In this document: in pieces, positions 12,126 to 52,269 of the stretch | Position numbering within the stretch: position 1 is the first letter of the stretch | How the letters are laid out: every line of letters starts with the position of its first letter | Source: Microcaldota archaeon | Lineage (GTDB): Archaea > Micrarchaeota > Micrarchaeia > Anstonellales > Anstonellaceae | Length of the DNA: 52,644 nt | NCBI GenBank assembly: GCA_026396415.1 | Contig: JAPLWX010000020.1 | Coordinates: forward strand, 1 to 52,644 | Direction: 5' to 3' | Position numbers and translations under genes: made by a program | Notes under the pieces: model-generated | Databases searched by the model: none | What the model saw: the letters and a program-made list of their open reading frames with translations, nothing else | Told to the model about the DNA's origin: nothing

Positions 12126-13427
12126 ATGCTTTCTTTGAGACTTATCCGCGAAAACCCGTCGATATTGGAAGAGTCGCTTGCGCGCAGGAATGCCGACACT
12201 GCGCCTGCTGCGGAACTCATGGCGCTTGACAAGAAATGGAGGCTGGCAAAGAACGAGGCGGACAACCTCAAGGCGGAGAGGAATGCGGCTTCCATGAAAA
12301 TATCCGAAGCAAAGAAGACAGCCGCCAAGGGCGGCGCCCATTTGCCGCAGGCAAATAGGGAGGGCGAGGATGTTGCCAAGATAATTGCCAAGACAAAAAA
12401 GCTTGCGGCGGAGATTGGGGCGGCTGACGAGAAAGCGGATGCGCTTGAGGCGCAGATGAACGAAATACTTCTTACAGTGGCGAACATCCCGGACAAGACC
12501 GTGCCTTCAGGCAAGGGCAAGGAGGACAATGCGGAGGTGCGCAAGTGGGGCATGCCCAAGCTCACCAGCAAGGATGCCAAGCCCCACTACGAGGTGGCTG
12601 ACAAGCGCCTCATTGATTTTGAACGGGGCGTGAAGCTTGCAGGGCACAGGTTTGTAATGCTTCGCGGGCTTGCCGCGCGCCTCGAGCGCTCGCTCATAAA
12701 TTTCATGCTGGATTTGCAGGGAATGAACGGCTACACCGAGGTGCTGCCGCCATACATGGTGAACAGGAAGGCGATGATGGGGACCGGGCAGTTCCCGAAA
12801 TTCGCATCAGAGCAGTACAAGATAGAGGACGAGGACCTGTACATGATACCGACAGCAGAGGTGCCTGTCACCAACATGTTCTCGGGCGAGACTTTGAAGG
12901 AGGAGCAGCTTCCCATGTCGTTTTGCGCATATTCCGCGTGCTTCAGGCGCGAGGCAGGCTCGTACCAGAAGGACATCAAGGGCATAATGCGCCAGCACCA
13001 GTTCGACAAGGTGGAGCTGGTGAAGTTCACGAAGCCTGAAGAATCTTTCCACGAGCTTGAGAAGCTCACAAAGGACGCGGAGTCCGTGCTGCAAAAGCTT
13101 GGGCTGCCCTACAGGGTGGTGGAGCTTTGCACCGGCGACCTGGGGTTTGCCTCTGCAAAAACGTATGATATTGAGGCGTGGCTGCCCTCGCAGGACAGGT
13201 ACAGGGAGATTTCATCCTGCTCGAACTGCACCGACTTCCAGGCGCGGCGCGCGAACATCCGCTTCTGGCGCGCAGGAAAGCCGGAGTTCGTGCACACGCT
13301 GAATGGCAGCGGGCTTGCAGTGGGCAGGACTATGATTGCGATAATGGAAAACTACCAGGACGAGACGGGCTTTGAAGTGCCCAAAGCGCTGCGCGACTAC
13401 ATGAGATGCGATAGGGTGGAGTTCTAA
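12126..13427 (+). CDS. serS: seryl-tRNA synthetase
   Basis: [21 protein letters not shown]; class II motifs incl. [32 protein letters not shown] abuts the serA stop. Confidence 0.97.
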
Positions 13428-17210: not shown

Positions 17211-17455
17211 CATCGAGCTTTGCTCGATGACTTGTCGAGCTCGGCTCGACAATTGTTGAACGCTTGCGCGTTCAACATCTGATGCGTTTTGCATCAGCAA
17301 AACGCACATCGCCGCGCTCTTTCAGCATCGGCAGAGCCGATGTCTGATGCATTTTGCTCCCGATTCGCCTGCAGGCGAATGGGCGCAGTTTTGCAAAGCA
17401 AAACTGCCGTTGCAAAATGCACATCAAATGCTGGAAAAGATGCTACATCTTTTCC
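17211..17455. repeat. intergenic hairpin cluster (array A), includes class I junction element at 17348-17421
   Basis: catcgagc-ttt-gctcgatg; ttgtcgagc-tcg-gctcgacaa; tgttgaacgc-ttgc-gcgttcaaca; tgcgttttgc-atca-gcaaaacgca; catcggc-aga-gccgatg; tgcattttgc[...]gcaaaatgca enclosing two hairpins; ggaaaagatg-cta-catcttttcc. Confidence 0.85.
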
Positions 17456-18846
17456 ACACTGCTCACCGCGTCCTGCGCGTCCTTCTTGTTCCGGTATCTG
17501 CGGTAGAGGACAAAATGCACCCCGCCCACCAGGAACCAGAGGATGGCGAAGTTCCTGCCTGCCTCGTGCAGCCAGATGACGAGGAAAAGCATGGCCACGC
17601 AGCCGAACACGGCGGCAAATGCCAGCAGCGGCACCTTGACGCCTTTCCATTGGATGTTCAGGGGAAGGCAGAACGGGCGCTTGATGTTGGGCTCGCTGAA
17701 TCGCAGCTTTATCAGCGAAAGGCTGGCTATCAGGTAAGCGGTAAGCGCGCCGAAGGCGTAAAGCTCGCCGAGGAAGAACAGGTCGCCGTACGAGGCAAGG
17801 ATGATTGCCACGGTGGAGAACAGGAGGATGGTCACCCATGGGGTGCGGAATGTGGGGTGCACCCACTTGAACCTGCGGGTGAGAAGCCCGTGGTTGCTCA
17901 TGGAATAGGTCACGCGCGAAACGCCTATTATCCCGGTATTCGCGGAGACGAAGCAGATGGCGAACCCTGTGGCGGCAACAATGGGCACGAGGATGCCGGC
18001 AAGCGGAAGCGCCTGCGCCACTGCCACAAGCGGGCTGTCCGACCTTTCCGCAAGCACCTGCGGGGTTACGATGCCCAGTGCCATGATGGATATCAGCACC
18101 GCGAATATGACCACGGACGATACGGCGGTGATATGGGCGCGCGGAAGCGTCTTTTCCGGGTTGCGCGTCTCCTCTGCGCCCTGGGAAATGCTTTCTATCC
18201 CGATGAATGCCACCATGGCAAGCGTCACGGAATAGAGGAAATTGTGGATGCCCGGGCTTTCAGCTATGGGCTTGAAGCCGGAAAGGAAAGTCTCGAGATT
18301 GAATCTAGTGCCGAAGCCCACTGCCATCAGGAGCACGAGCAGGGCTATGGTGCCTACTGTGAGCCAGGAATTCACCCACGAGGATTCCTTGATGCCGAAG
18401 AGGTTGATGGCGACCAGCACAAGAATCATGACGGTGCTTGCTATGGGAAGCATGGGGCGCAATGCCGGGAAGAAGAATGACAGGTACCCTGCCGATGCCA
18501 CTGCGAAAAGGGCGATGTCTATCGTGTAATCCAGCATCAGCCCCCAGCCGCCTATGAAACCGGCGAGCTTTCCGAACGCCCGTTCGCCATAGACCGACGC
18601 CCCGCCAGCAACCGGAATTGCGGATGCGAGCTCCGCATAGCAGAGGCCGGTGAGGACATAGACGCCTGCGGCAATGAGTATGGCAAGCGGCATCGCCCCG
18701 CCTGAATATGCGGCAATGAGGCCAAGCGCGAGGAAGATGTCGGCGCCCACGTCAGCAAAGCCCATGGAGAAGCTGCCGAGGAACCCCAGCTCCTTCTTTA
18801 GCGGGGAAATCCTGGCAATTATGTCCATGGGTGCGGGTATGTCCAT
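17443..18846 (-). CDS. APC-superfamily amino acid permease
   Basis: GFLGSFSMGFADVGADIFLALGLIAAYSGGAMPLAILIAAGVYVLTGLCYAELASAIPVAGGASVYGERAFG; many TM segments. Confidence 0.9.
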   Translation of the reverse strand: MDIPAPMDIIARISPLKKELGFLGSFSMGFADVGADIFLALGLIAAYSGGAMPLAILIAAGVYVLTGLCYAELASAIPVAGGASVYGERAFGKLAGFIGGWGLMLDYTIDIALFAVASAGYLSFFFPALRPMLPIASTVMILVLVAINLFGIKESSWVNSWLTVGTIALLVLLMAVGFGTRFNLETFLSGFKPIAESPGIHNFLYSVTLAMVAFIGIESISQGAEETRNPEKTLPRAHITAVSSVVIFAVLISIMALGIVTPQVLAERSDSPLVAVAQALPLAGILVPIVAATGFAICFVSANTGIIGVSRVTYSMSNHGLLTRRFKWVHPTFRTPWVTILLFSTVAIILASYGDLFFLGELYAFGALTAYLIASLSLIKLRFSEPNIKRPFCLPLNIQWKGVKVPLLAFAAVFGCVAMLFLVIWLHEAGRNFAILWFLVGGVHFVLYRRYRNKKDAQDAVSSVEKM

Positions 18847-26174: not shown

Positions 26175-26239
26175 AAGCCCCCGACGATGGAGCAGAGCAG
26201 GAAGCTCTGCGACAGTTTTTGGCACGAAGTGCCAAAAAG
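26175..26239. repeat. two-hairpin junction element next to tRNA-Thr (element G)
   Basis: Outer aagccccc/gggggctt encloses gcagagc-aggaa-gctctgc and tttttggcac-gaa-gtgccaaaaa. Confidence 0.7.
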
Positions 26240-26264
26240 AGGGGGCTTTGAACCGAAGGTGAAA

Positions 26265-26336
26265 AGCCCCCGACGAGATTTGAACTCGTGACATCCAGTT
26301 TACGAAACTGGCGCTCTACCGCTGAGCTACAGGGGC
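26265..26336 (-). tRNA. tRNA-Thr(CGT)
   Basis: Cloverleaf by eye: acceptor GCCCCTG/CGGGGGC, D stem GCTC/GAGC, anticodon arm CCAGT-TTCGTAA-ACTGG, T arm ACGAG-TTCAAAT-CTCGT, discriminator T; no CCA encoded. Confidence 0.95.
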
Positions 26337-26342
26337 ATTGAC

Positions 26343-26535
26343 AACTGCGAAGCAGGTGGCAATAGGTTGTGCATCAGCACAACCGTGTGGCCAATTTCCC
26401 GGAGGAAATTGGGCAATTGTTGAGCGACGGCAGTCGTCCTTTGGACGACTGCGCCCATTCGCCAAAGGCGAATCGGGAGCTCAACATGTCGGTCAAAACC
26501 AGCAGGTTTTGAGCGCAGGCGTGCGCTTTGCGCGA
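26343..26535. repeat. intergenic hairpin cluster (array B), includes class I junction element at 26418-26486
   Basis: ggttgtgc-atca-gcacaacc; ccaatttcc-cgga-ggaaattgg; tgttgagc[...]gctcaaca enclosing gcagtcgtcc-ttt-ggacgactgc and attcgcc-aaa-ggcgaat; tcaaaacc-agca-ggttttga; gcgc-ttt-gcgc. Confidence 0.85.
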
Positions 26536-26594
26536 TGTTAATAACTTTGCAAGGTTTTAAAAGCGATAAGCAGGCGCGCGTTGCCGCAGCGCGC

Positions 26595-27008
26595 CTATTT
26601 TTCCAGGCTTATGCCCCTCAGCCCCAATTTTGGCAGCGGCTTTTTCCCAAGTTTTGTTGTCGGCAGGATGAAGAATTCGCCCATAACCGAGATTTCCGCG
26701 CCTATCAGGTGGCCGCCGTGCACATTGAAGCGCGCATCGGACATGGAAATATGCGCGTGCAGCCCGTCCTCGCTTATGTTGCCGATGCAGGAAAGCATCT
26801 CGTAGTTTTCGCCCGGGAAGCGTCTTGTTTTCCATTTTTTTGCCTGCGGGCTGTAATAGGCGAGCTCCACATCGGTTATGGCGCCTATGCCCCACACCTG
26901 CGCGCCCGTAATCTTGTGCTCGCGCGCCCAATTGGAAATTGAGGATTTGACCTCTTCCCCTTGCTCCAGAATGAGCCAATAGCCTGATTTTTCCTTGCGG
27001 GATTGCAT
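26595..27008 (-). CDS. PPC/DUF296-domain protein
   Basis: YWLILEQGEEVKSSISNWAREHKITGAQVWGIGAITDVELAYY...LHAHISMSDARFNVHGGHLIGAEI. Confidence 0.82.
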   Translation of the reverse strand: MQSRKEKSGYWLILEQGEEVKSSISNWAREHKITGAQVWGIGAITDVELAYYSPQAKKWKTRRFPGENYEMLSCIGNISEDGLHAHISMSDARFNVHGGHLIGAEISVMGEFFILPTTKLGKKPLPKLGLRGISLEK

Positions 27009-27058
27009 GGAGTGGATGCCAAGGATAAATATATAATCACTGGAGGTGTATTTTTCCC

Positions 27059-28645
27059 ATGGAAAGCGAACTTTTCAGGTCCCTGGACGGCAAGTGGAAA
27101 TCCACCATGAAAATCCTTCTTGGCGAGGAATTCGGCAGCATGAAGGAATACGAGAAATGGCTTTTGGGAAGGAATCGGCCGCGGATTACCAGGAAGTCCG
27201 CAATATCAGGCAAGGAAGTCTCGTTTGTCCTGCCTGATTACCCGCAGTCAAGGATACTCTCGCTTGAGGAGATTGATTTCCAGAAGAGCTTTGCCCCGCT
27301 TTCCATCAACGAAGTAAAAGACATTGACTCCATAGCCGCCGCGGTGAAGGAAAGGGCGTATTACACCGGCAACATCCATCTTGGGAATTCGAAATTCATC
27401 GAGGGAAGCACAGACATCATAGAAAGCTTCTACATCTATGATTCCGGGCAGGTGAGCTTCTCGAAATACATTGCATATGGCTACAACCTGGAATATTCCG
27501 AGTGCGTCTTTGGCGCGATGAACTATGGGAACAGCAGCTTCTGCACCCAGATAAGCAATGCCATCAAGATTGTGCGCTCCCTTGAGATGTACAGCTGCTT
27601 CGACTGCCAGGACTCTTATTATTCTCACCGCCTGTTCAACTGCAAGAACACCATGTTCTGCTTCAACCTCAGGAATGCCTCGCATGCAATCGGGAACCTA
27701 AAGCTTGCGCCTGACAAGTACACGGCGCTGAAGAAGAAGCTTGTTTCGGAAATGGCTGCGGAGCTCAAGAAAAACAAGTCCTTGCCCAGCCTTATTGACA
27801 TTGTCGGGGATTCTGCACCTGACCCAGCCATGATGGCTGCCTTGAGGGGCAAGTTCGTGAAGCCAAAGGAAAAGCCTGTGAGCCGCGCTCCGATAGAAAA
27901 GGCATTCCAGAGCACGACAGGCGTTATTTTTGGCAAGCCGCTTGCAGGCATTGAGAAATATGGGGCTTGGCTGTCGGAACACATCCGGGAAACCAGGAAA
28001 GGAATATCTGCGCTCAGCGGGGAGGAATTCGTGGTTGCGAACCACGCGCAATACTTCAGGTACCCGAAAAGCAGGCTGGTGGGCGAGGAGGAATCGCTGT
28101 TCCTTGGGGCGGAGCTTGCGCTGACTGAGAAGGATTTGGAGGGGCTGAGCCTGAAAAACGTCGGGGGAAGGATTGGGAAGATAGCATTCTTCCGGCCGGG
28201 CTACGAGGAGGGAAAGCTTTCCAACAACATCGAAAGCATAATGGACGTTGACGTGACAAACGCATTTAGGAGCGTGCTGAACCTGCAGAGCAAGAACTGC
28301 GCGTACAACTACTACATGCTGGAATGCGAGTCCATGTTCGGTTGCAATTCCATCAGGAAATCCGCATTCCTTGTAAGGTGCTACAATTCGGCAAGGATGA
28401 ACAGGTGCTTCGAGGTGGACTCCTCGCGCGACTGTTCTGACGCTTATTTCTGCCAGAACTGCGAAAATGTGCAATCCGCGATGTTCTCATTTAACCTGAA
28501 GAACAAGAGGAACGTCATAGGGAATGCGGAATACTCGAAGGAGGAATACGCGAAAATCAAGAACTCGCTTTGCGCGCAGATTGTCTCCGAGCTTGAAAAA
28601 ACCCACGCGCTTAGGCACAGCATATTCACGATTGGGAAGGACTGA
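27059..28645 (+). CDS. hypothetical Cys-rich protein with internal duplication
   Basis: NTMFCFNLRNASHAIGNLKLAPDKYTALKKKLVSEM repeats as SAMFSFNLKNKRNVIGNAEYSKEEYAKIKNSLCAQI. Confidence 0.6.
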   Translation: MESELFRSLDGKWKSTMKILLGEEFGSMKEYEKWLLGRNRPRITRKSAISGKEVSFVLPDYPQSRILSLEEIDFQKSFAPLSINEVKDIDSIAAAVKERAYYTGNIHLGNSKFIEGSTDIIESFYIYDSGQVSFSKYIAYGYNLEYSECVFGAMNYGNSSFCTQISNAIKIVRSLEMYSCFDCQDSYYSHRLFNCKNTMFCFNLRNASHAIGNLKLAPDKYTALKKKLVSEMAAELKKNKSLPSLIDIVGDSAPDPAMMAALRGKFVKPKEKPVSRAPIEKAFQSTTGVIFGKPLAGIEKYGAWLSEHIRETRKGISALSGEEFVVANHAQYFRYPKSRLVGEEESLFLGAELALTEKDLEGLSLKNVGGRIGKIAFFRPGYEEGKLSNNIESIMDVDVTNAFRSVLNLQSKNCAYNYYMLECESMFGCNSIRKSAFLVRCYNSARMNRCFEVDSSRDCSDAYFCQNCENVQSAMFSFNLKNKRNVIGNAEYSKEEYAKIKNSLCAQIVSELEKTHALRHSIFTIGKD

Positions 28646-28721
28646 AAAATGAAAATAAACGCCGACGAGGAGATTTGTTCGTTCGCCGCAAACGCAGGGT
28701 TTGGGCGATGCCCCTTGAACC

Positions 28722-28965
28722 CGTTTTACGGGGGTTTGGGGGGCGCCGCACTAAGGGGGCGTAGCCCCCTTGGGGTGGCATTGAACTCCTAAGCCCCGAG
28801 GGGCACTAGATTTCCTGTTGACAGATTCCGCGTCTGATCTCGAGTCTAGCGCGATACCGGATTCTGCCACGTCGGCGTGTTCAAATCCCCGGAGGGATTT
28901 GGACTGACAGTCGAGCGAAGCTCGACTGCGTGTTCGGAGATTTGCTTTGCAGCAAATTCCAAAAT
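28722..28965. repeat. intergenic hairpin cluster (array D)
   Basis: aagggggc-gta-gccccctt; cacg-tcgg-cgtg; caaatccc-cgga-gggatttg; cagtcgagc-gaa-gctcgactg; atttgct-ttgc-agcaaat. Confidence 0.7.
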
Positions 28966-36732: not shown

Positions 36733-36907
36733 CGCGGAGAGGAAAACGCCGAGCGTCAACTGCCGGAGCAGTCCCTCTTTTTGCGCAGCAAAAAGGGGCG
36801 CAATCGCCTGATGCGTCGGGCGATTGCCGTGGCGCGTTTTTGGCACGACAGACAATTGCAAAGCAATTGGATGCGAAGTCGTGCGCAGCACGACAACGGC
36901 GCCAAAA
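36733..36907. repeat. intergenic hairpin cluster (array C), includes a class I junction core at 36772-36830
   Basis: ctgc-cgga-gcag; ctttttgc-gca-gcaaaaag; gcaatcgcc...ggcgattgc; caattgc-aaa-gcaattg; gtcgtgc-gca-gcacgac; outer ttttggc/gccaaaa. Confidence 0.8.
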
Positions 36908-41022: not shown

Positions 41023-44000
41023 CTACTTCTGCGAGAGCGGCAGCGGCTGGCTTGATGCCAGGGCATTGTCATCGTAAAGCGCGAGGATTTCCGCATCGGT
41101 CAGGGCGCGGCTGAACACGCGCACCTCGTCAATCCTGCCGGAGAAGGGCTCGCTGATATAGTCGGGCCCGTTGCCGATTGCAAAGTTGCTGAGGCTCGTG
41201 ATCGGGGTCCCGAGGCTGGCGCTGCTGCCGGCCTGCGCCCCGTTGATGTAAAGCCTTGCCACGCCGCCCTGCCTTGTTGCCGCGACATGGTACCATTCAT
41301 TGTCCTGGATGGAGCCCTCGGGAGATGTCGCATAGCCTTGTATGAGGAGGCCCAGGTAGTGATGGTCGACGAAGAATTCCGTGCCATTGGCATTGCGTAT
41401 GCTGTCATAGTTGCCCATTATGTAGTTGTTAGCGGATGCGCCAGTCGTATTTATCCATGCCGAGAGCGTGAAGTCCCCTGTTCCGCTGAGAAGCGCCGAG
41501 GGCAGCATTATCTTGTCCGTTGTCCTGCCGCCGGTGTTGAATTCGTATGCCCCCCCCACTTTCCCATCAGGCACCCAGGCTGCGCCGGTCTTGGTGCCTG
41601 CGCCCAGGAAGCGGGAATAATCCACAATCATGCCGCGCTCGTCCGAGCTCACGTTGACGTCGAAAGGCATGGAGAGCATGGTCTCGGGCAGGAGCGCCCT
41701 TATCCTCAGGCCGGCATTGTATGCCGCGGTGAGGTTCTGCGCCGCAGCGCCGGAATAGGTGAACGCGAGGTTCATGCTGCACTGCTGCTGGAACCAGCCA
41801 TTGTAGTGGCCCAGGACATCCGCCGGCGTGAGCGAGCGCTTGTAGAAGCGCACCTCGCCAAGCTCGCCTGCAAATCCGCTCGCCCCGGGGCTGCCGATGT
41901 AGAACGCCCCGCTGCTTTCCAGGCTTCCAAGCGAAAAGCCGGCTGGCTGCTGGTAGAGCACGCCGTCCAGGTATACCGAGTAGTTGCCGGTGCGGTCAAC
42001 CGAGAGCGCGACCTGGTGCCAATCGCAGTCGGCAAGCGAAACCGCGGGCAAAATCGAGGCGGCGCTCCCATCGCTGGCGCCCTTGCTGCTTGAGCTGTAC
42101 ATCCCCATGGTGAGCGTGTTGTCCGTGCCCACGGCCCAGTTGATGCCCTGCGGCTTGCCATCGACAGTGGACATCTGCGAGAACAGCACGCCCCCCGGCT
42201 GGATTGCATCTGCGCGCACCCAGGCAAGCATGGAGAAGTCGCTTGCCTGCGTGACGGATACATCGTCTATGTTGTATGGCACGCCGGATATGGGGTAGAA
42301 TCGGAGCTGCATCCTGGCGTTCGGAAGAGTCTTGAATACGTTCACCACCTGGCGCCACGCCGTGTCCGTGGCGGCAGGCTCTATTATTCCGCCATCCGCC
42401 CCCCCGGTGGCATTGGCGTACAGCCATTGCCCGCTTGCCGAGAGGTAGGCATTGTTGATGGTGTCGTAAAGCGCATAGCGCGCAAGCGGGGTGCCCGTGG
42501 TCCCGACGCGCGCCCAGAACGAAAGCACGTACTTCGCATCGCCCGCAAGCGGGCCCATGAGCGCCGAGTTGTATGCATATGAGCCCTCTGCGCCGCTCAC
42601 CGATGCGGATGATGCACCTGAATGGTATGTGCCGGCCGAGCGCGCGAAGCCGACTCCGCCCGCCTTGGCCCAGCCGCTGAACTGCATATCGCCGGTGACA
42701 TTCAGGCTTATGCAGTAGTAGTCGCTGCTGCCCGAAAGCAGAGCGCAGGAATATGGCGATTCGCAGCCGCCCGGGCGGGAGGCGCTGCATTTGGCGTAGG
42801 GCGCGTAGTGGTCGACGCACTGCCCATAGTCCGAGAGGATGGTGTGGTTGGCCCCGTAGCTTGAAACGCCTATGCTTTCCCTGTTCAGCGTGTCGCAGAA
42901 CCCTGCTGCACATTCCGAGTCACTGAGGCAGGCGGCGCCAATCGGGCTGAGCGCGGGCTTGGGCGGTGCGCACACCAGGCTGTTTGTGCCAAGCGAGTCC
43001 TGGCAGCTTCCGGAGCAGCACTCGACGTCCAGGGCGCAGCTTGCATTCTGGGGCACGCATGACTTGCACAATCCTGCGCTGCACAAGCCAGAGGCAGCGC
43101 CCTGCGCAGCGCAGCATTGGCTGTTGGATGCGCAGGAAGCCGAGCTGTTTATCGGTATGCAGGCGGAACAGGCGCCATCCGCGCAAAATGAGCAGCCGGA
43201 CGGGCATTGCGATGAAAGATTGCAGGACTGGCCGCATGACAGTGCGTCCACGCATACTTTCACGCTTGAGTTCTCCAGGCTGGGCCTGCACAGGCCCGAA
43301 AGGCAGTCTGCGCCGGAAGAGCAGTTGAGCATGGGGCTTGCAATCAGGCAGGTCCCTGCGGGGGAGGTTGAGCTGCTGTATTTGCAAGCCATGCCTGAGC
43401 AGCACTTCTGCGCGGGCGAGCAGGCGGCCCTGCTGCAGCTTGTCCCTATCGCCGGGAGTGTGAATGCCGAGGACTCGTTCGGGGCTGAGCATGCCCCGTA
43501 CCTGTCGCATGCGCGGACCTGCATTTTTATCTGCATGCCCTCGGTGCAGCCTTCTGGAAGAAGCTCGCAGCTGAAAGAAGTGGAGCTGTGCCAGAAGCCC
43601 GTTATGGGCGTGTTGGAGGCAAGCCACCTGTACTCGATCCTGACGGGGGTGTCAAAGTCCGGGTCAGGGGGCATGTTGGTGGCGACGCAGTTCTGCACGC
43701 ATGTTATTGTCCCGTTGGAAGCAGACAGGCTCAGCACTGGCACTTGGAATGGGACTGCGGGCGGGTGATTGGCCGCGCATATGCCTTCCTTGCAGGTGAG
43801 GTTGGAGCCGGAGCAGCAGTCAGCGGCAGAAGTGCATGTCCTTCCGCCTTCGCTTAGGCAGCCGACACACGCCCCAAAGTCGGAAGAGCCGGTTGCCAGG
43901 TTGCAGAAGCTGTTCCCGCAGCACTCCGAGTTGGAGGCGCAGGTGACTGCGCCGATCGGGAGGCAGGGGCTGCATGCGCCGCCTGTGCAATAAGGCGCCT

Positions 44001-47000
44001 GGGGGGCGCACTCCGTTGCGGACGCGCAGGCCTCCCCGGCAGCTTTCTTTGCAACGCACACTCCGCCGCTGCAGGTTGATGACGGGCAGCATGAAAGCCA
44101 GGGGGAGCCGGGGCATGTTTCGCCGCCGCTGGTGCACACGCCCGCGTTGCAGGCTGCAGTGCCGCAGCTTGAAGACGCCGTGGATGAGCTGCAAGGCTGC
44201 CCCATTGGCAGGCAGTATGCGCTTTCGCATGAAGTGCACGGATAGCAGGTATGGGAGACCTGGTTGCAGCCGGCCTCGCAGTAGGGTGCATCGCCGGCCA
44301 TGCAGTCTTCATCGATATTGCAGGACTTGAGCTCGCATGCCCCGATGGTGTAGTTCTTGGGGGCGGGAGGCGGCAGTATCGCGCAGCGGTCGGCGGTCAT
44401 TGGCGCGTAATCCGCAACCGTGCCGTAGAGCATGCCGCGCGCGTTTGCCGCGTTGTACGGGTACTGCGACGGGTCTGCAAGCGAATCCGAGCCGGCATAG
44501 TAAGTGGTGTTCCAGCCGGGCTTTGCGGACCTGTTGGAGCCGCAGATGGAGACCTCCTTGCCTATTGCCAGGTTGTACCAGCTGTTGCCCTCGTTCTGCC
44601 CGGGAATGGTGGAGTTGTAGAAGTTCTGCCCGTCTTCCTCCTTTGCATAGAAGCCGGCGGTGGCGCCAAACGTGTTCCAGTAAAACGTGTTGCGCGTTGA
44701 GTGCGACAGGCGCAGCAGGTCGCTCGTGTACGAGGAGGACAGGAATGTGTTGCCGTACATCATGTTGCCGGCCGAATTGTCCTCGAAGTAAGCCGATACG
44801 CCGCCTGCGGCGGACGTGAACGTGGAGCCTGCCACCGTAAGCGCTTCGCCTCCGCTCACCCAAAGCCCGTAGCCGCCGCCCGTATTGGTGCCTGATGAGT
44901 TCGAGACGGCGGCATGGGTGGTTGCAAGATAGATGCCTGCGCCGGTCGCGCCGGTGGATGATGATGAGGCTGCAGCACCGTATATGGATGCATATGAGGA
45001 CGCGCCTTCCACTGAAATGCCGTTTTTGCTTGATGATGATGCGGATACGTTTGAGATGGTGGTGCCTATTGCGCCATCGGCAACCGTTATGCCGTTCCCG
45101 TCCCCGGATGATGCCAAGCCGTTTTGCAGCAGCGTATCATCCGTGAATTGGGCAAGGTAAACGGCATCGCTTGCGGCTGTCACATTCATGCCGGATATGT
45201 TGGTGCCTGAAACGCCGTCCAGGTAAATGCCTGTGCCCCCGGATGCCCGCATGCCTTCAATCGCATTGCCGTCCGAGCCGCCCGATGCCTGCAGGCGCAT
45301 GGCAGTGCCGGTGCCCGCAACGATGGTAATGTTGGCGAAGCGGTTGGCAGGGGAGTTGGTGATGAAAAGGGCGGTGCCTGCGCTGGTGGATGCCGTGTCG
45401 CCCGTGAATGAATTGTTGGCGCTTCCGCCCATGAAAATCCCATAGCCGCCGCCTGTTGCGTAGTTGTTGCTGAAGATGTTCGAGCCCGTGCTTGTGATGT
45501 CCATGCCCGTTCCGTTGCCATTGGCAGTCGCCACGTTGTTGGAGATGTTGTTGCAGCCGTAATCAGGCGAGTTGATGGAGATTGCCTTGCCGGCCGCAAC
45601 GGTGATGGCGTTGCCTGAAAGAGAATTGTTCGCGCTTGATGAGAGGTAGATTCCGAAGTAGCCTGCATCCGCGCTTCCCCTTGTGATTGCATTGAATGAT
45701 ATGGAGTTGTTGCTGCTCTGGTCGAGGAATATGCTGTGCCCGGTTGAATTGGAAAGCACATTGCCGGATATTACCGAGGCCTGGCTGGCGGGCTCCAGGT
45801 GGATTCCGTGCCTGCCTGAAAACACCGTGTTGTTTGCGACCAGGGCGCCCGTGGAACTGGCGATGTCCACGCCGTCCATGGAGGCGTTCAGGGTGCCCCC
45901 TATGACCGAGGCGGAGTCCGACTGGTTGATGCAAACCGCATGGCTGGAGGCGGAGGTTGCGTTGGAGCTGATGAGTTGGCTGTTATGGGACGCGGAAAGG
46001 TAAATGCCATAGCCGTACTGCGAGTATGCAAAGTTGTTGGAAAGCGTGCTGTAGTTTGAGCCTATGAGCAGGATGGCGGCTGAATGGGTTGCAAGCGCGG
46101 CATTGCTGCTTGTTATATGGATGGTGCTGTTCTGGATGTTGCTGTTCCTGGATGTGTTGAAGTAGATGCCAAATGCAAAGTTGCTTATGTTGCAGTTCTT
46201 CACCGTAGTGTTGAATTGGGTGGAGTAGACGCCGTAGGTGCCGGTGATGTTCGCACCGAGCAATGCGCCGCCCTGGCAGTCGAATGTGCCGTTGCTTCCC
46301 CCGTTTATGTAAATTCCGTGCCCGCTGCCGCTTGTGTTGATGCTTATTGCGGTGAAGTTGTTCCTGTTCGAGCTGTTCGCCGCGTAAATCCCATAGCCCG
46401 TGGAGCCGTTCACAAGAATCGAGGAGAATGCGGAATCGCTCGTGCTGCTCAGCACGACGCCTGACGAGCTGCCGTTGGCGCCGGCGCTGGTGCCGCCACT
46501 GCCTTTCGCGCCGCCTGTGCCGCCGCGGATGCCGGCTATGTTGTTCGAGGAGAGGCTGTTGGAGCTGGAGGAGATGAGGTAGATGGCAGAGACGCTGCCT
46601 CCAAGGCCGCCATAACCTAAGTTGCAGCCGCCTGTGCCGCCCGCGCCTCCGGTGAGCGTGGAGATGGAGTTGGAGGTGAGATTGATGAAGCTGGATGAGG
46701 ATAAGTAGATGGCTGAAACGGCGCCGCCTGTGCCGCCTGTGCCGCCATTGCCGCCTGTGCCGCCAATGCCTGCAGTGATGTTTGAGATGATATTGGAGGT
46801 GAGGTTGCTGGAGTTGGAGGAGGAGAGGTAGATTGCGGCAGAAGTGCCGCCTGGACTTCCGGCAGCGCCGCTGGAACCGTAGATTCCGGATATGCTGTTG
46901 CCCGTGATGATGGATTTGTTGATGCTTGTCAATGCCAGCCCGGCCGAGATGCTGATTGAAGAGAGATAGATTGGCGCTGATCTGGTGCGGGTGATGTTGA

Positions 47001-50000
47001 CCGTTTGCGACGAGATGTTGAGGGAGGTGGCATTGTAGAAGAAGAGGACGGGCTGGCTATCCATTGTATTTGCCGAGGCAGGCACATAGTAGTCGCCTGA
47101 CGCCTGGGTGGAAGTGAATGTGTTGGAATAGGAGTTGCTGTCTATTGAGAAAGCGGTTGAGAAGCCCGCGGCGCCGGAATTGCCGCCTGCCCCGGGCCCG
47201 CCTCCCGAACCGCCCGAAAGGGTGGAGATAATATTCGAGAGGAACAGGTTTGAGGCGGAAGAGATTAGGTAGAAGGCGGCAGAAGTGCCGCCAGTGCCGC
47301 CAACGCCTCCGCCTCCGCCGCCGCCGCTTGTGCCGCCTGTGCCGGCAGTGAGGCTGGAGATGTTATTGGAAGAGAGGTTGTTGGAATTGGAGGATGAGAT
47401 GTAAAATGCGGAGGCGGTCCCGCCAGTGCCGCCGCCGCCCCATGTGCCGCCAGTGCCGCCTATGCCTGCGAAGAGGCCCGAGACGGCGTTGGAGGTGATG
47501 TTGTTCGAGCTTGATGATGAAAGGTAGATTGCGATGGAATTGCCGCCCGCGCCGCCAGTAGCAAAGCTGGTGCCGATATCGCCGCCGGCAGCCCCGGTGA
47601 TATTCGAGATGATGTTGCCGAAGAGGATGGAACTGCTTGCCGATGCCAGGTAGATGCCGTAGGCAGGATATCCTGCGCCGCCCGCCGTGCTGGTGCTTCC
47701 CGCTGTGAGGTTGAGGAGGGTGTTCGAAGATATGTTGTTGAGGGGAGACGCCGCGTAGATTCCATAGACGGCTGAATCCGAAGGGGCTGCATCGTCCCTG
47801 ATGGTGTTGTTGTAGAGGGTGGAGCGGTTCGCGCTTGAATTGAGGTAGATGCCGGTGGGAAACTTCTTGATGATGCAGTTTTTCACAGTTGTGTTGGACT
47901 GGTTGGAGTAGACGCCGGAAGTCCCCGAGGCGTTCGTACCCATAAGTGATATGCCTTGGCAGTCCACGCTTACGTTTGAGCCGCCGTCGATGTTGATTGC
48001 TGATGAGCGGTTGGAGGAGGCGGTGGTGTTGATGATTTGCGTGTTGTGGGAAGCAGCCGTGACGACGATGCCATAACTAGATGTACCTGAAACGAGGTTG
48101 CGTGCGATTGAATTGTTTATGATGGTGTTGGGGCTCAGTTGAATGCAAATGCCAATAAGTGAGTTTGATGTTCCTGTGAAGTTGGAGAGTATGATGGAGA
48201 TTGTGTTATAGATATAGATACCACGACTGCTGCCGGATGTCCCCGTTGAGTTGGTAATTGTGCTATTGGTGTTGCTGTCGCCGAGATAGATGCCTACTCC
48301 GGTTATTGCAATGGTATTGCTGTTTGTTATACTATCGTTGCCTCCACCAGTGATAAATATGCCCGCGCCATGCCCCCAAGACCATGCTTTCGTTGTTGAT
48401 GCATTTACATTGTCTATCGTCCCGTTCTTCGCCCCTCCGGCAAAGTAAATGCCAACGTCGAAGTTGGAAATGTTGCAGTTCTTCACCGTGGTGTTGGGCT
48501 GGTTCGAGTAGACGCCGTAGGTGCCGGTTGAGTTGTTGCCGGCGATTGAGAAGCCTGCGCAGTTGAGCGTGACGTTAGCTGCTGTCACATTGAAGCATGT
48601 GGAGCCGCTGATGCTTGCGTTCGTGGTCATGTTGTAGGCCATATTTGCGGATGAGAGGGCGCCGCACCGGAGGATTGTTGGCGCGCTTGCGTTTGTCAGG
48701 GGCGCATAGTCCGCGCAGCCTGCGAAGTTGCAGGAGAACTTGCCGCCTGAGGTGGAGTTGCCGTAGGGATAGCCGCTGCCGGATGAGCCGATGTAGAGGC
48801 CGGGGATTGAGGAGTTGGAAGTGCCATAGACCTGCACGCTGCCGTTGATGACGTTTGCCCAGATGTTGCCCTCATTTGGCGTGGTGCCTATCGCCCCCGG
48901 GCTTGCGGTCTGCGCGTATTCCGCCTTTATCCAGTCGGCGGAGCGGTTGGTGTTCGAGATGCGCGCCTCGTCAAGGGAGCCATTGTATTTACCCCAATAT
49001 GTTGTATCTGTTTCATAGCCAATTCTCACCGTATTCGTGCTAAAAGTCCATGCACCATTCGCCGAAGCATTTGCAACCTTAACACCATCTACGTAAAGCA
49101 TTGCCATGCCTCCATTCGGAGCCGCAATTAAGGTCACAAGATGCCAGTTGCCATCTACAACACTTCCACCTGACATCCAACTAACTATACTTGCTGTGGC
49201 GTTCTTTATTTGTACGGCTGGAGAGGCACCGGAAAGCACTATAGTAATGCCATTATACGCAGAAGCTCCTCCGGCACGGCAGAATAATGCACAGGAGGCG
49301 CCACCCGTGCCATTGATTGACCCCCCACTTGACTTCACCCATATTGACCATGTGGATGTTGTGCTATCATAGTTCGTAGAGTTAGGAATGTATATGTGGT
49401 CGCCTGCAGTTGAATTGAATAAAGCTCCTCCGTCTGCCATCCCTGTTATGGCTGTTGGTGTTGTGATTGTTCCATTGTTTCCATAAATTGTATCTATTGC
49501 GTTCAAAGTTGTCCCATTTCCGAGATGATAAACCGCCACAAAGTTGCTGTCCCATGTCCCAGTCTTGTTCTCCCCGCTTGCGGCGCCCGTGTTGCCAAGG
49601 TAGGCGTAGATGCGCGTGAGGGCGCTGCCCGCGTAGTTGCCCTGCACCCAGAAGGTGCTGTTGACAGTGGAGTTGCCGCAGCTTTCAACCTCATAGTTGA
49701 GGATGTTTTTGGAGCTGTCCGTGAAGCGCACGTTGGCGCAGGTCGTGGCGTTCCAGTAGGTGGAGTTGGTGGTGTTGAGGCTCACAAGTGCAGGGAAGTT
49801 CGTGAGACTGCTTGCCACCGTGGTGTTGATGTCGATTGGCAGCATATATGGCCATGGGGCAAGCTGCGCAGTGGCTGTGGAGCAGTTGTAGTGGTTGGAG
49901 CCGTTGGTGTCGTTCACGTACAGGCCGGTTGTGGCGGTGAAGTTGTTGAGGCAGAAGGTGTTGTTGTTTGAGATGCTTGCGATGTAAAGAAGATTGTTCG

Positions 50001-52269
50001 CCCCGCCAATGGTGTTGTTGCTTATGATTGAGTTGTTGCAGTTTGACATTTTCAGCGTGTTGGAATTTGCTCCGGTTGCGGTTATCGTGTTGCCTATTAT
50101 GTTGATGTTGCTGCCAGCCAGATTGATGCCCGATGTCACGCCTCCGATTATGGTGTTGTTTGCCACGCTTACATTCACCGGAGCACCTGTAAATGACATT
50201 CCATCTACTATTCCGATTAGCGTGTTGTTCATTATTGCTATATTGTTCCCATTGGCTAATCGGATTGCCGCGTATGATGCTCCGGTTGAATACATGTATG
50301 AGTTCGTGACCGACACGGTTGTGCCGGGATACACGAACATCCCATAGCCAGTTATCGCCGAGAGGTTGCAGTTCGTCACATTGACGTTGCTTACTGTCGT
50401 CATATATATTGCATTAGCATAGGGGTAAGTGTCGTTGCGCGTGATGGTTATGTTTGTGTCCTTTACCGTCACTTTGTCGGTGGATACTGCCTGCACTCCG
50501 TGCTGGAAATTGCTTATCACGCAGTTCATCACGGTGGTGTTTGCCTGTGTGGTGTATATGCCGTTTGTGCCGGTTGAGTTGTTCCCAGTTATCGACCAGC
50601 CTGCGCAGTTGAGCGTAACGTTTGCCGCCGTGACAGTAAAGCATGTCGAGCCGTTGATGCTTGCGTTTGCGGTCATGTTGTAGACCGTGTTTGCACTGGA
50701 GAGGTTGCCGCACTGGAGTGCGGCCGCTGTGCTTGCATTGGTGAGAGGCGCATAGTCCGCGCAGCCTGCGAAGTTGCAGGAGAACTTGCCGCCGCTGCTT
50801 GCCGTTGTGTTGCTGTAGGGAACGCCTGCGCCGGATGTGCCGATGTAGAGGCCTGGAATTGATGATGCTGTTGAGCCGTAGACTGAAATGCTGCCGTTCA
50901 GCACATTTGCCCAGATGTTGCCCTGGTTGCTGCCGTTGTAGGTGCAGTTGTAGTAGTTCGAGCCGTTCAGGTCTTGGACGTAAGTCGTCGGGCTTGTTCC
51001 TGAATTTGAGAAGTTGTTCAGGCAGAAGGTGTTGTTGGATGCGCTTGAGTCAAGATAGAGCAGGGTAGTGGCATTGAGGATTGTGTTGTTGATGAATCGT
51101 GTTCCAACGGTTCCGCCAACGTTCTTTATGAACCCGACAGCATATGTCATTCCATAGCCGTTGATTGTGCTGTTTGCCACAGTGGCGTTTGTCGTGTCCT
51201 GCAACAGCAATGACCCGTATGTGCTGCTTCTGCCAGTTGCAGTGCAGTTATTGATTATTACGCCAGTGCTAAGATATACATACAGTGCCATTGATGTCGT
51301 TGAAACGCCGATTGAGGATAGCACGGAATTGGTTATTGTGGTGTAGTTACTGGTTTGGAGGATGATGCCATATTGCCCGTTGCTTGTCTGCGTGACTTTT
51401 GAGGTCACATTATCCACTGTGCTATTGGTTACGTTATTGAGACTTATTCCCCGTGTGTATTTGCTTATGTTGCAGTTCTTTACCGTCAGGTTGACTATGT
51501 TGATAGTAGAGATGCCCAAATAGGGATTGGCATCGTTGCCGGCTATGTTCGCGCCCATGCAGTCCACGGTCACATTGTTTCCGCCATCAATAACGATGCC
51601 GTGCGCACTCGTGGTGGTTATCGTGTTTTGGTTGAGGCTGTTCCTGTGCGCGCTTGAAGTAATGTAGACTGCATAGCCTCCGGTGAGTGTTTCGGCGATT
51701 GTGTTGTTCTGGATGAGGCCGTCGGTTGAACCGCTGTAGCGTATGCCGTTGGAGAAGCCCGAAACGTTGCAGTTCTTCACCGTGGTGCCCGTTCCTGCGC
51801 TGTAAACACCCCACGTGCCGGCTGCGCTCACGCCTGTTATTGTCTTGCCCATGCAATCAATCACAACGCCGCTGCCTGAATTGACTGTGATGGCCGCGGC
51901 GGTGTTCACGGTTGAGATGGAATAGAGCGTGTTGTTCTGTATTATGGTGTTTGCCGAAGAGCCCGTGTTCCTGATGGCAGTGTAGCGCGCGGCATTGGTG
52001 ACGTTTATGGTGTTGCTTGATATGATGCCGTTTGACGCGCCGTTGAACTGGATGCCGTCCTCAAAGCCGGTTATTATGCAATTCTTCACGGTTGTGTTGG
52101 ACTGGCCGGAATAGACGCCATATGTGCTGGCGGCATTGTTGCCGGTTATGGAATGCCCGTTGCATTCAATTGTCACATTGTCCGCCTGCACGTTGAAGCA
52201 CGAGCCGTTGCTTGCCAGGTCAGAGGTCACATTGCACACGTAGTTTGGCGTGGCAAGATTGCCGCACAC
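41023..52269 (-). CDS. giant modular surface protein: parallel beta-helix repeats, DUF2341/LamG-like domains, Gly-rich helices, Cys-rich region
   Basis: 3748 codons open; repeated SGSTCFNVTAANVTLNCAGFSIAGNNSTGTYGVYSNQPNTTVKNCNISNF (NosD/PbH1-like), LamG-like WSIWVKSS..LYVDGVKV..GYETDT and ISAWINTT..LYINGAQAGSS. Confidence 0.9.
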   Translation of the reverse strand: MCGNLATPNYVCNVTSDLASNGSCFNVQADNVTIECNGHSITGNNAASTYGVYSGQSNTTVKNCIITGFEDGIQFNGASNGIISSNTINVTNAARYTAIRNTGSSANTIIQNNTLYSISTVNTAAAITVNSGSGVVIDCMGKTITGVSAAGTWGVYSAGTGTTVKNCNVSGFSNGIRYSGSTDGLIQNNTIAETLTGGYAVYITSSAHRNSLNQNTITTTSAHGIVIDGGNNVTVDCMGANIAGNDANPYLGISTINIVNLTVKNCNISKYTRGISLNNVTNSTVDNVTSKVTQTSNGQYGIILQTSNYTTITNSVLSSIGVSTTSMALYVYLSTGVIINNCTATGRSSTYGSLLLQDTTNATVANSTINGYGMTYAVGFIKNVGGTVGTRFINNTILNATTLLYLDSSASNNTFCLNNFSNSGTSPTTYVQDLNGSNYYNCTYNGSNQGNIWANVLNGSISVYGSTASSIPGLYIGTSGAGVPYSNTTASSGGKFSCNFAGCADYAPLTNASTAAALQCGNLSSANTVYNMTANASINGSTCFTVTAANVTLNCAGWSITGNNSTGTNGIYTTQANTTVMNCVISNFQHGVQAVSTDKVTVKDTNITITRNDTYPYANAIYMTTVSNVNVTNCNLSAITGYGMFVYPGTTVSVTNSYMYSTGASYAAIRLANGNNIAIMNNTLIGIVDGMSFTGAPVNVSVANNTIIGGVTSGINLAGSNINIIGNTITATGANSNTLKMSNCNNSIISNNTIGGANNLLYIASISNNNTFCLNNFTATTGLYVNDTNGSNHYNCSTATAQLAPWPYMLPIDINTTVASSLTNFPALVSLNTTNSTYWNATTCANVRFTDSSKNILNYEVESCGNSTVNSTFWVQGNYAGSALTRIYAYLGNTGAASGENKTGTWDSNFVAVYHLGNGTTLNAIDTIYGNNGTITTPTAITGMADGGALFNSTAGDHIYIPNSTNYDSTTSTWSIWVKSSGGSINGTGGASCALFCRAGGASAYNGITIVLSGASPAVQIKNATASIVSWMSGGSVVDGNWHLVTLIAAPNGGMAMLYVDGVKVANASANGAWTFSTNTVRIGYETDTTYWGKYNGSLDEARISNTNRSADWIKAEYAQTASPGAIGTTPNEGNIWANVINGSVQVYGTSNSSIPGLYIGSSGSGYPYGNSTSGGKFSCNFAGCADYAPLTNASAPTILRCGALSSANMAYNMTTNASISGSTCFNVTAANVTLNCAGFSIAGNNSTGTYGVYSNQPNTTVKNCNISNFDVGIYFAGGAKNGTIDNVNASTTKAWSWGHGAGIFITGGGNDSITNSNTIAITGVGIYLGDSNTNSTITNSTGTSGSSRGIYIYNTISIILSNFTGTSNSLIGICIQLSPNTIINNSIARNLVSGTSSYGIVVTAASHNTQIINTTASSNRSSAINIDGGSNVSVDCQGISLMGTNASGTSGVYSNQSNTTVKNCIIKKFPTGIYLNSSANRSTLYNNTIRDDAAPSDSAVYGIYAASPLNNISSNTLLNLTAGSTSTAGGAGYPAYGIYLASASSSILFGNIISNITGAAGGDIGTSFATGGAGGNSIAIYLSSSSSNNITSNAVSGLFAGIGGTGGTWGGGGTGGTASAFYISSSNSNNLSSNNISSLTAGTGGTSGGGGGGGVGGTGGTSAAFYLISSASNLFLSNIISTLSGGSGGGPGAGGNSGAAGFSTAFSIDSNSYSNTFTSTQASGDYYVPASANTMDSQPVLFFYNATSLNISSQTVNITRTRSAPIYLSSISISAGLALTSINKSIITGNSISGIYGSSGAAGSPGGTSAAIYLSSSNSSNLTSNIISNITAGIGGTGGNGGTGGTGGAVSAIYLSSSSFINLTSNSISTLTGGAGGTGGCNLGYGGLGGSVSAIYLISSSSNSLSSNNIAGIRGGTGGAKGSGGTSAGANGSSSGVVLSSTSDSAFSSILVNGSTGYGIYAANSSNRNNFTAISINTSGSGHGIYINGGSNGTFDCQGGALLGANITGTYGVYSTQFNTTVKNCNISNFAFGIYFNTSRNSNIQNSTIHITSSNAALATHSAAILLIGSNYSTLSNNFAYSQYGYGIYLSASHNSQLISSNATSASSHAVCINQSDSASVIGGTLNASMDGVDIASSTGALVANNTVFSGRHGIHLEPASQASVISGNVLSNSTGHSIFLDQSSNNSISFNAITRGSADAGYFGIYLSSSANNSLSGNAITVAAGKAISINSPDYGCNNISNNVATANGNGTGMDITSTGSNIFSNNYATGGGYGIFMGGSANNSFTGDTASTSAGTALFITNSPANRFANITIVAGTGTAMRLQASGGSDGNAIEGMRASGGTGIYLDGVSGTNISGMNVTAASDAVYLAQFTDDTLLQNGLASSGDGNGITVADGAIGTTISNVSASSSSKNGISVEGASSYASIYGAAASSSSTGATGAGIYLATTHAAVSNSSGTNTGGGYGLWVSGGEALTVAGSTFTSAAGGVSAYFEDNSAGNMMYGNTFLSSSYTSDLLRLSHSTRNTFYWNTFGATAGFYAKEEDGQNFYNSTIPGQNEGNSWYNLAIGKEVSICGSNRSAKPGWNTTYYAGSDSLADPSQYPYNAANARGMLYGTVADYAPMTADRCAILPPPAPKNYTIGACELKSCNIDEDCMAGDAPYCEAGCNQVSHTCYPCTSCESAYCLPMGQPCSSSTASSSCGTAACNAGVCTSGGETCPGSPWLSCCPSSTCSGGVCVAKKAAGEACASATECAPQAPYCTGGACSPCLPIGAVTCASNSECCGNSFCNLATGSSDFGACVGCLSEGGRTCTSAADCCSGSNLTCKEGICAANHPPAVPFQVPVLSLSASNGTITCVQNCVATNMPPDPDFDTPVRIEYRWLASNTPITGFWHSSTSFSCELLPEGCTEGMQIKMQVRACDRYGACSAPNESSAFTLPAIGTSCSRAACSPAQKCCSGMACKYSSSTSPAGTCLIASPMLNCSSGADCLSGLCRPSLENSSVKVCVDALSCGQSCNLSSQCPSGCSFCADGACSACIPINSSASCASNSQCCAAQGAASGLCSAGLCKSCVPQNASCALDVECCSGSCQDSLGTNSLVCAPPKPALSPIGAACLSDSECAAGFCDTLNRESIGVSSYGANHTILSDYGQCVDHYAPYAKCSASRPGGCESPYSCALLSGSSDYYCISLNVTGDMQFSGWAKAGGVGFARSAGTYHSGASSASVSGAEGSYAYNSALMGPLAGDAKYVLSFWARVGTTGTPLARYALYDTINNAYLSASGQWLYANATGGADGGIIEPAATDTAWRQVVNVFKTLPNARMQLRFYPISGVPYNIDDVSVTQASDFSMLAWVRADAIQPGGVLFSQMSTVDGKPQGINWAVGTDNTLTMGMYSSSSKGASDGSAASILPAVSLADCDWHQVALSVDRTGNYSVYLDGVLYQQPAGFSLGSLESSGAFYIGSPGASGFAGELGEVRFYKRSLTPADVLGHYNGWFQQQCSMNLAFTYSGAAAQNLTAAYNAGLRIRALLPETMLSMPFDVNVSSDERGMIVDYSRFLGAGTKTGAAWVPDGKVGGAYEFNTGGRTTDKIMLPSALLSGTGDFTLSAWINTTGASANNYIMGNYDSIRNANGTEFFVDHHYLGLLIQGYATSPEGSIQDNEWYHVAATRQGGVARLYINGAQAGSSASLGTPITSLSNFAIGNGPDYISEPFSGRIDEVRVFSRALTDAEILALYDDNALASSQPLPLSQK
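48701..48747 (-). repeat. 47-bp exact repeat inside the giant gene, copy 1
   Basis: ggcgcatagtccgcgcagcctgcgaagttgcaggagaacttgccgcc. Confidence 0.85.
50747..50793 (-). repeat. 47-bp exact repeat inside the giant gene, copy 2
   Basis: Identical to 48701-48747. Confidence 0.85.

Follow-up and report, generated by a model that had tools for sequence, protein, structure and literature searches.

A dispersed family of double-hairpin elements in a Microcaldota archaeon, with copies in hairpin loops and in frame within protein genes

Mitochondrial double-hairpin elements of Allomyces and Schizosaccharomyces are, according to the accessible part of one report, short GC-rich units of two hairpins that lie mostly between genes; some sit inside genes (rns, rnl), and they are presumed to be mobile by means of an unknown enzyme (PMC10085805). 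The repetitive hairpin-forming elements of sponge mitochondria are likewise described, in the available portion of another study, as dispersed and mostly intergenic (PMC2800124). Rickettsia palindromic elements (RPE) are palindromic repeats found in frame in unrelated protein-coding genes (PMC10969869). The archaea considered here have small genomes, and their mobile DNA is little known; a literature search for hairpin repeats in Micrarchaeota found none. We analyzed a stretch of 52,644 nucleotides from a Microcaldota archaeon (contig JAPLWX010000020.1), hereafter the window, in which a cluster of hairpins beside a tRNA-Thr gene (array B) contains a member of a previously unlisted family of double-hairpin elements.

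A first-pass annotation, made without database searches, had described array B as a set of named hairpins around an enclosed two-hairpin junction. Direct reading and a hairpin scan recovered every one of those hairpins in place (Table 1). The junction (26419-26485) is closed by an outer stem, GTTGAGC/GCTCAAC, formed by positions 26419-26425 and 26479-26485. Inside it lie a 10-bp stem at 26430-26452 (HP1) and a 7-bp stem at 26457-26473 (HP2), the latter with a bulged C and a GGG clamp. When the element is removed, the host hairpin reads TGTTGAGC-GAA-GCTCAACA, an 8-bp stem with a GAA triloop. The region 26337-26560 is predicted to fold at -105.6 kcal/mol, compared with -71.3 ± 4.6 for dinucleotide shuffles (z = -7.45), and the opposite strand folds about equally well. 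Stems of at least 7 bp with loops of 3 to 4 nt number 25 in the 1,545 bases of hairpin clusters and 20 in the other 51,099 bases of the window, the clusters having been chosen for this count after being seen. The architecture HP1-CCC-HP2-N-GGG occurs four times in the window and was absent from 20 dinucleotide shuffles.

Table 1. Positions of the hairpin arrays, element copies and adjoining features in the window (^, point at which the host hairpin is split by the element)
Feature	Position	Strand	Evidence or remark
tRNA-Thr (CGT) gene	26265..26336	-	Adjoins array B; 100% identity with sister genome G008 over 74 nt
Mini-hairpin CTGC-GAA-GCAG (GCGAAGC within)	26345..26355		Read from sequence
Simple hairpin, 8-bp stem, ATCA loop	26365..26384		Hairpin scan; also in G008, where the loop is GTCA
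Simple hairpin, 9-bp stem, CGGA loop	26391..26412		Hairpin scan; also in G008 with an altered loop
Host hairpin TGTTGAGC / GCTCAACA, split by double-hairpin element	26418..26486	+	Element parser
Double-hairpin element, 50 nt, clamp to clamp (CG..GGG)	26428..26477	+	Found first by blastn; R1 match; parser
Simple hairpin, 8-bp stem, AGCA loop	26493..26512		Hairpin scan
Simple hairpin GCGC-TTT-GCGC	26523..26533		Read from sequence
Array A, run of hairpins including element	17211..17456		Orthologous site in G008 without array A
Element copy in array A, host hairpin TGCATTTTGC-AA^A-GCAAAATGCA	17359..17409	-	R1, parser
42-nt in-frame copy within SerRS coding sequence (12126-13427)	12319..12360	+	R1, parser; precise empty site in G008
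Array C, two weaker double-hairpin matches	36773..36907	-	R1 and architecture search

A blastn search of array B against its own genome (G000) recovered the enclosed junction from further contigs and also from array A, where it has the opposite orientation. This agrees with the first-pass annotation, which had placed the element on the other strand there, the copy lying at 17351-17418 on the minus strand. We built a covariance model (R1) from seven clean copies only, because a first MAFFT alignment had misaligned the short copies. R1 matched the array B element at 87 bits (E 1.8e-22), that copy being among those from which the model was made. At E ≤ 1 it gave 43 matches in G000, a figure that takes in partial hits and echoes on the reverse strand, and about 29 non-overlapping copies reach E ≤ 1e-3; matches at E ≤ 1 were present in 15 of the 39 genomes searched, G000 counted. 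A second model (R2), built from 43 copies, was run on a sample of 246 genomes of the phylum. It detected the architecture at E ≤ 0.001 in 37 of them, which all belong to one class, and the same joints were seen in distant families (L315, L327, L328). R2 is nearly strand-symmetric, and its distant matches denote a common architecture, not strict orthology.

The copies occupy either strand and are found in intergenic DNA, in coding sequence and in one tRNA intron. This distribution upholds the earlier proposal that the unit is dispersed and does not belong to a single transcript, except that the unit that moves is the double hairpin and not the array. We are confident that the family is dispersed and mobile. 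A single transcript or noncoding RNA was ruled out as an account of the hairpins by their occurrence on both strands and in coding sequence and by their presence or absence between genomes.

Copies take the form CGC-r-stem-loop-stem-GCG followed by CCC-stem-loop-stem-y-GGG, usually with A on both flanks. Each of the two back-to-back hairpins has a GC clamp, usually a one-nucleotide bulge (in HP1 a purine after the CGC clamp), a perfectly paired stem of free sequence and a loop of mostly 3 to 4 nt; the stem tips are usually GC or CC in both hairpins. The clamp is 3 bp in the general form, and that of HP1 is often shorter in G000. The parser rewards bulges, and bulge counts are therefore biased upward. 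The element is 42 to 57 nt long. Among 57 parsed copies the modal length is 54 nt (22 copies), and the stems comprise 44 different sequences in HP1 and 39 in HP2.

Over this variety of stems the pairing persists. In the 43 copies, it is kept in 93.6% of cells, a share that falls to 65% in shuffles, and changes on both sides are seen at 26 of 27 pairs. The covariation score reaches 0.593, whereas no slid register exceeds 0.088. These counts come from an alignment fitted to the model, and the presence of related copies inflates the shuffle statistics; the gap to the slid controls is large. The first-pass annotation would have been refuted by conservation of the array as plain sequence without covariation, whereas the covariation is extreme. 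Strong covariation would also fit a functional RNA or regulatory structure, such as a leader, terminator or noncoding RNA, under selection on its fold. That explanation is scarcely tenable, given that presence and absence differ between sister species, that copies lie in coding sequence, on either strand and nested, and that an Rfam search of the window returned tRNAs only and no other family.

Of roughly 1,018 paired cells, only some 15 (1.5%) are G·U pairs. Together with recurrent stem words, their scarcity suggests whole-stem replacement or arm copying over slow compensatory drift, although this is an inference. The loops change fastest. In 12 pairs of near-identical copies, defined as differing at no more than 10% of non-loop sites, 21 of the 24 loops differ, and divergence is 41% in loops of equal length compared with 3.3% elsewhere, about 12 times faster. 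One G000 copy matches a copy in another genus (G012) at every non-loop base and differs from it in both loops.

Filled and empty sites were compared in related genomes. SerRS has 42 extra nt in G000 where the closest sister, G008, is empty, and the filled and empty forms of uL24 differ by a net gain of 54 nt. Pus10 is found in three states: empty in G001-G007, G009 and G025, with one element in G008, and with two in G000, where a second element of 54 nt sits within the HP1 loop of the one present in G008. Counted by hand as far as its final clamp base, the first Pus10 element is 57 nt long; the parser gives 56 nt. The gains in these four comparisons (42, 54, 57 and 54 nt) equal the element length, and all are multiples of three. 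No target-site duplication of at least 2 bp was seen in any of the four; a 1-nt duplication cannot be excluded, as the flanking A is ambiguous. The intron of a tRNA-Thr(GGT) gene (G000:C25:81257-81458, in L073) also holds an element in G000 and is short in G008. ARAGORN misses this gene with its element-enlarged intron, as it does other intron-bearing tRNAs.

In 18 of the 32 copies whose outer stem reaches 6 bp, exactly 3 nt remain when the element is removed. This remainder is split two and one in 13 of those 18, most commonly as GA^A or AA^A. Between genes, the element usually targets the triloop of a pre-existing hairpin, commonly as GA^A or AA^A. Its own loops are among the targets, and insertion into them causes copies to nest. 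The empty SerRS site shows no obvious hairpin, so that insertion does not strictly require one. In DNA, a GAA loop closed by GC has unusual stability, d(GCGAAGC) being an example. We also considered that there might be no dedicated element, the palindromes arising from errors of replication or repair (template switching, fold-back synthesis or hairpin capture at breaks). Perfect stems, recurrent stem words and rewritten loops fit such arm copying, and no enzyme has been found, but a class-wide grammar of joints, clamps, bulges, 54-nt modal length and GA^A target would be hard to obtain from undirected errors, which makes this origin improbable.

In-frame copies predominate in coding genes. They occur in unrelated protein genes, namely, SerRS and the Pfam-confirmed genes for uS2, topoisomerase I (TopoI), uL24, eL8, uS11, eL32, Pus10 and V-ATPase subunit I; antisense copies lie in ArgRS and in a papain-family protease (Pfam). 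Most genic copies use one common reading frame and encode peptides like TAVLxxKTAPIGAxGSNREE; the predicted peptide inserted in uL24 is TAVLRGKTAPIGAQGSNRE. Only coding genes gave the 42-nt form in parsing (eL8 twice, and SerRS), with the uS11 copy parsing as 41 nt. The ArgRS copy, at 52 nt, is the only one that clearly departs from a multiple of three. As predicted from sequence, a non-coding element adds short in-frame peptides to ribosomal proteins, tRNA synthetases and Pus10. The SerRS itself (12126-13427, plus strand) is of bacterial type, its best matches being bacterial at about 52% identity, which suggests, on sequence similarity alone, a gene transfer. A 3,748-aa open reading frame occupies 41023-52269 on the minus strand.

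Thirteen of 15 genic copies, the tRNA intron counted, are in sense orientation, a bias that may reflect coding constraint or an RNA step. Mobility at the RNA level, by which a small and perhaps circular RNA would enter transcripts by reverse splicing and then be copied back, in the manner of tRNA introns or retroelements, could account for this bias and for the copy within a tRNA intron, and an RNA could plausibly insert from loop to loop. However, a search for reverse transcriptase (RVT_1) found none in 10 of 16 carriers (G012, G025, G068, G132 and G156 among them), G·U pairs are nearly absent, the intergenic arrays have units on either strand, and antisense copies are found in two genes. We regard an RNA route as unlikely, though it should be kept in mind.

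We lean, without strong conviction, toward a non-autonomous mobile DNA element that is defined by its structure and moves by a DNA-level, loop-targeted mechanism. On a single strand, the two ends of the element would abut to form a nicked dumbbell. An as yet unidentified enzyme or repair pathway that recognizes hairpin tips would open a loop and join the dumbbell to it as DNA, and one arm might be rebuilt by copying the other. Such copying would account for the perfect Watson-Crick stems, the near absence of G·U and the rewritten loops. Successive insertions, both within existing hairpins and next to them, would enlarge clusters such as array B.

A rival explanation is a REP/RAYT-like system, in which a Y1 (IS200/IS605-type) transposase acts on hairpins as single-stranded DNA. 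G000 encodes two Y1 transposases, and bulged hairpins and insertion without long duplications recall IS200/IS605 biology (PMC2817692). The hairpins near the G000 Y1 genes are of another type, however, and the elements have neither a GT(A/G)G head nor a common stem sequence. Moreover, Y1_Tnp (PF01797) was not found in the carriers G008, G012, G025 and G032 (72-92% complete), which have 8, 15, 13 and 6 R1 matches, respectively. We consider this route quite improbable. The IS110/IS1111 DEDD transposase (DEDD_IS110) is missing from 13 of the 16 carriers, G000 among them. None of Y1, RVT_1 and DEDD_IS110 co-occurred consistently with the element, and all three were rejected as mobilizers; the carrier genomes are incomplete (72-100%), which limits what their absence can tell.

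The first-pass annotation had also proposed that the tRNA-Thr locus be compared with sister genomes to see whether the array is present or absent as a unit. Array A does behave as a block, G008 lacking it entirely, but array B is a mosaic. In G008 an identical tRNA-Thr gene is followed by two of the simple hairpins of array B with altered loops, without a double hairpin, and then directly by tRNA-Ser. A 2.4-kb stretch (26416-28780), with a PCC-domain gene and a gene for a 528-aa protein, is present at this locus in G000 only and not in G008. Hairpin arrays border it on both edges, and its array-mediated gain or loss is possible. As far as sequence comparison can tell, the absence of array A from G008 and the altered tRNA-Thr locus indicate that hairpin arrays turn over and may promote rearrangement. 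These comparisons rest on one close sister, and the assemblies are fragmented.

Several other features of this region were observed. The 528-aa protein (27059-28645, plus strand) has no Pfam match and belongs to a large paralogous family, with 24 matches in its own genome and many in relatives, whose members are often in tandem or occur as half-length pieces. Past the 3' end of the tRNA-Thr gene, 89 nt downstream, 13 nt of that end are repeated (AAGCCCCCGACGA; window 26175-26276), and a different two-hairpin junction (26175-26250) is found between the two copies. The tRNA-Ser(CGA) gene (28661-28876, minus strand) has an anticodon-loop intron and a hairpin-rich insertion of about 104 nt in its T-loop (about 28678-28781), which is absent from the sister copy (G008 C53:338-450); this is either a T-loop intron or a broken gene. 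Elsewhere in the genome, L078 (G000:C7:1-3000) and L082 (G000:C18:31300-35400) carry the same element copies with matching flanks on two contigs, which suggests a larger duplicated repeat or an assembly split.

If the proposed reading is true, this is a mobile element recognized by shape alone, with nested generations visible and exact empty sites. It raises a testable question, namely, which enzyme opens and rejoins hairpin loops. The element can also break tRNA-gene and open reading frame annotation, as well as assembly, in these archaea. It is doubtful for now whether it represents an entirely new category of mobile DNA, namely, an element of about 54 nt that forms a dumbbell, has its identity in its fold and not in its sequence, is moved by an unidentified hairpin-tip enzyme, nests in loops and has repeatedly entered essential genes in frame. 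We file it as a variant of dispersed palindromic mobile elements, a category that hinges on the unidentified machinery.

The element was also compared with several other known systems. The four filled and empty comparisons lack the target-site duplication of at least 2 bp that would mark a MITE of a DDE transposon. A group II intron or retroelement is at odds with the 10 of 16 carriers without RVT_1, and an IS110/IS1111 derivative with the 13 of 16 without the DEDD transposase. The outer stems vary freely between copies, which would sit poorly with a fixed core site as in integron attC. The element can sit within an archaeal bulge-helix-bulge (BHB) tRNA intron, but where it lies in a protein gene it leaves the reading frame open, and inspection of its ends by eye revealed no bulge-helix-bulge motif. 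The sponge hairpin elements are mitochondrial, and the available portion of their description mentions neither a clamp and bulge grammar nor loop targeting (PMC2800124).

The nearest known systems are REP/RAYT, RPE and the mitochondrial double-hairpin elements, each of which fails at least one tested defining feature. Like REP elements and BIMEs with RAYT, the family consists of dispersed bulged hairpins in clusters without large target duplications. REP elements have a common stem sequence and a GT(A/G)G head, whereas the archaeal joints are A^CG..GGG^A with 44 distinct HP1 stems in 57 copies, and several carriers have no detected Y1 protein. The likeness to RPE lies in the in-frame insertion in unrelated protein genes; RPE are about 150 bp long, form several sequence families and belong to one bacterial genus, whereas the archaeal element is 42 to 57 nt long, defined by structure and nested in hairpin loops. 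With the mitochondrial double-hairpin elements it has in common two adjacent hairpins in one short mobile unit, a likeness that does not rest on direct sequence comparison. The genome here is archaeal and not mitochondrial, as its ribosomal proteins (uL24/L26, L32e) and Pus10 attest, and the archaeal element combines arbitrary stems, a clamp and bulge grammar, triloop targeting, nesting and many in-frame genic copies, none of which is mentioned for its mitochondrial counterparts in the accessible part of that report.
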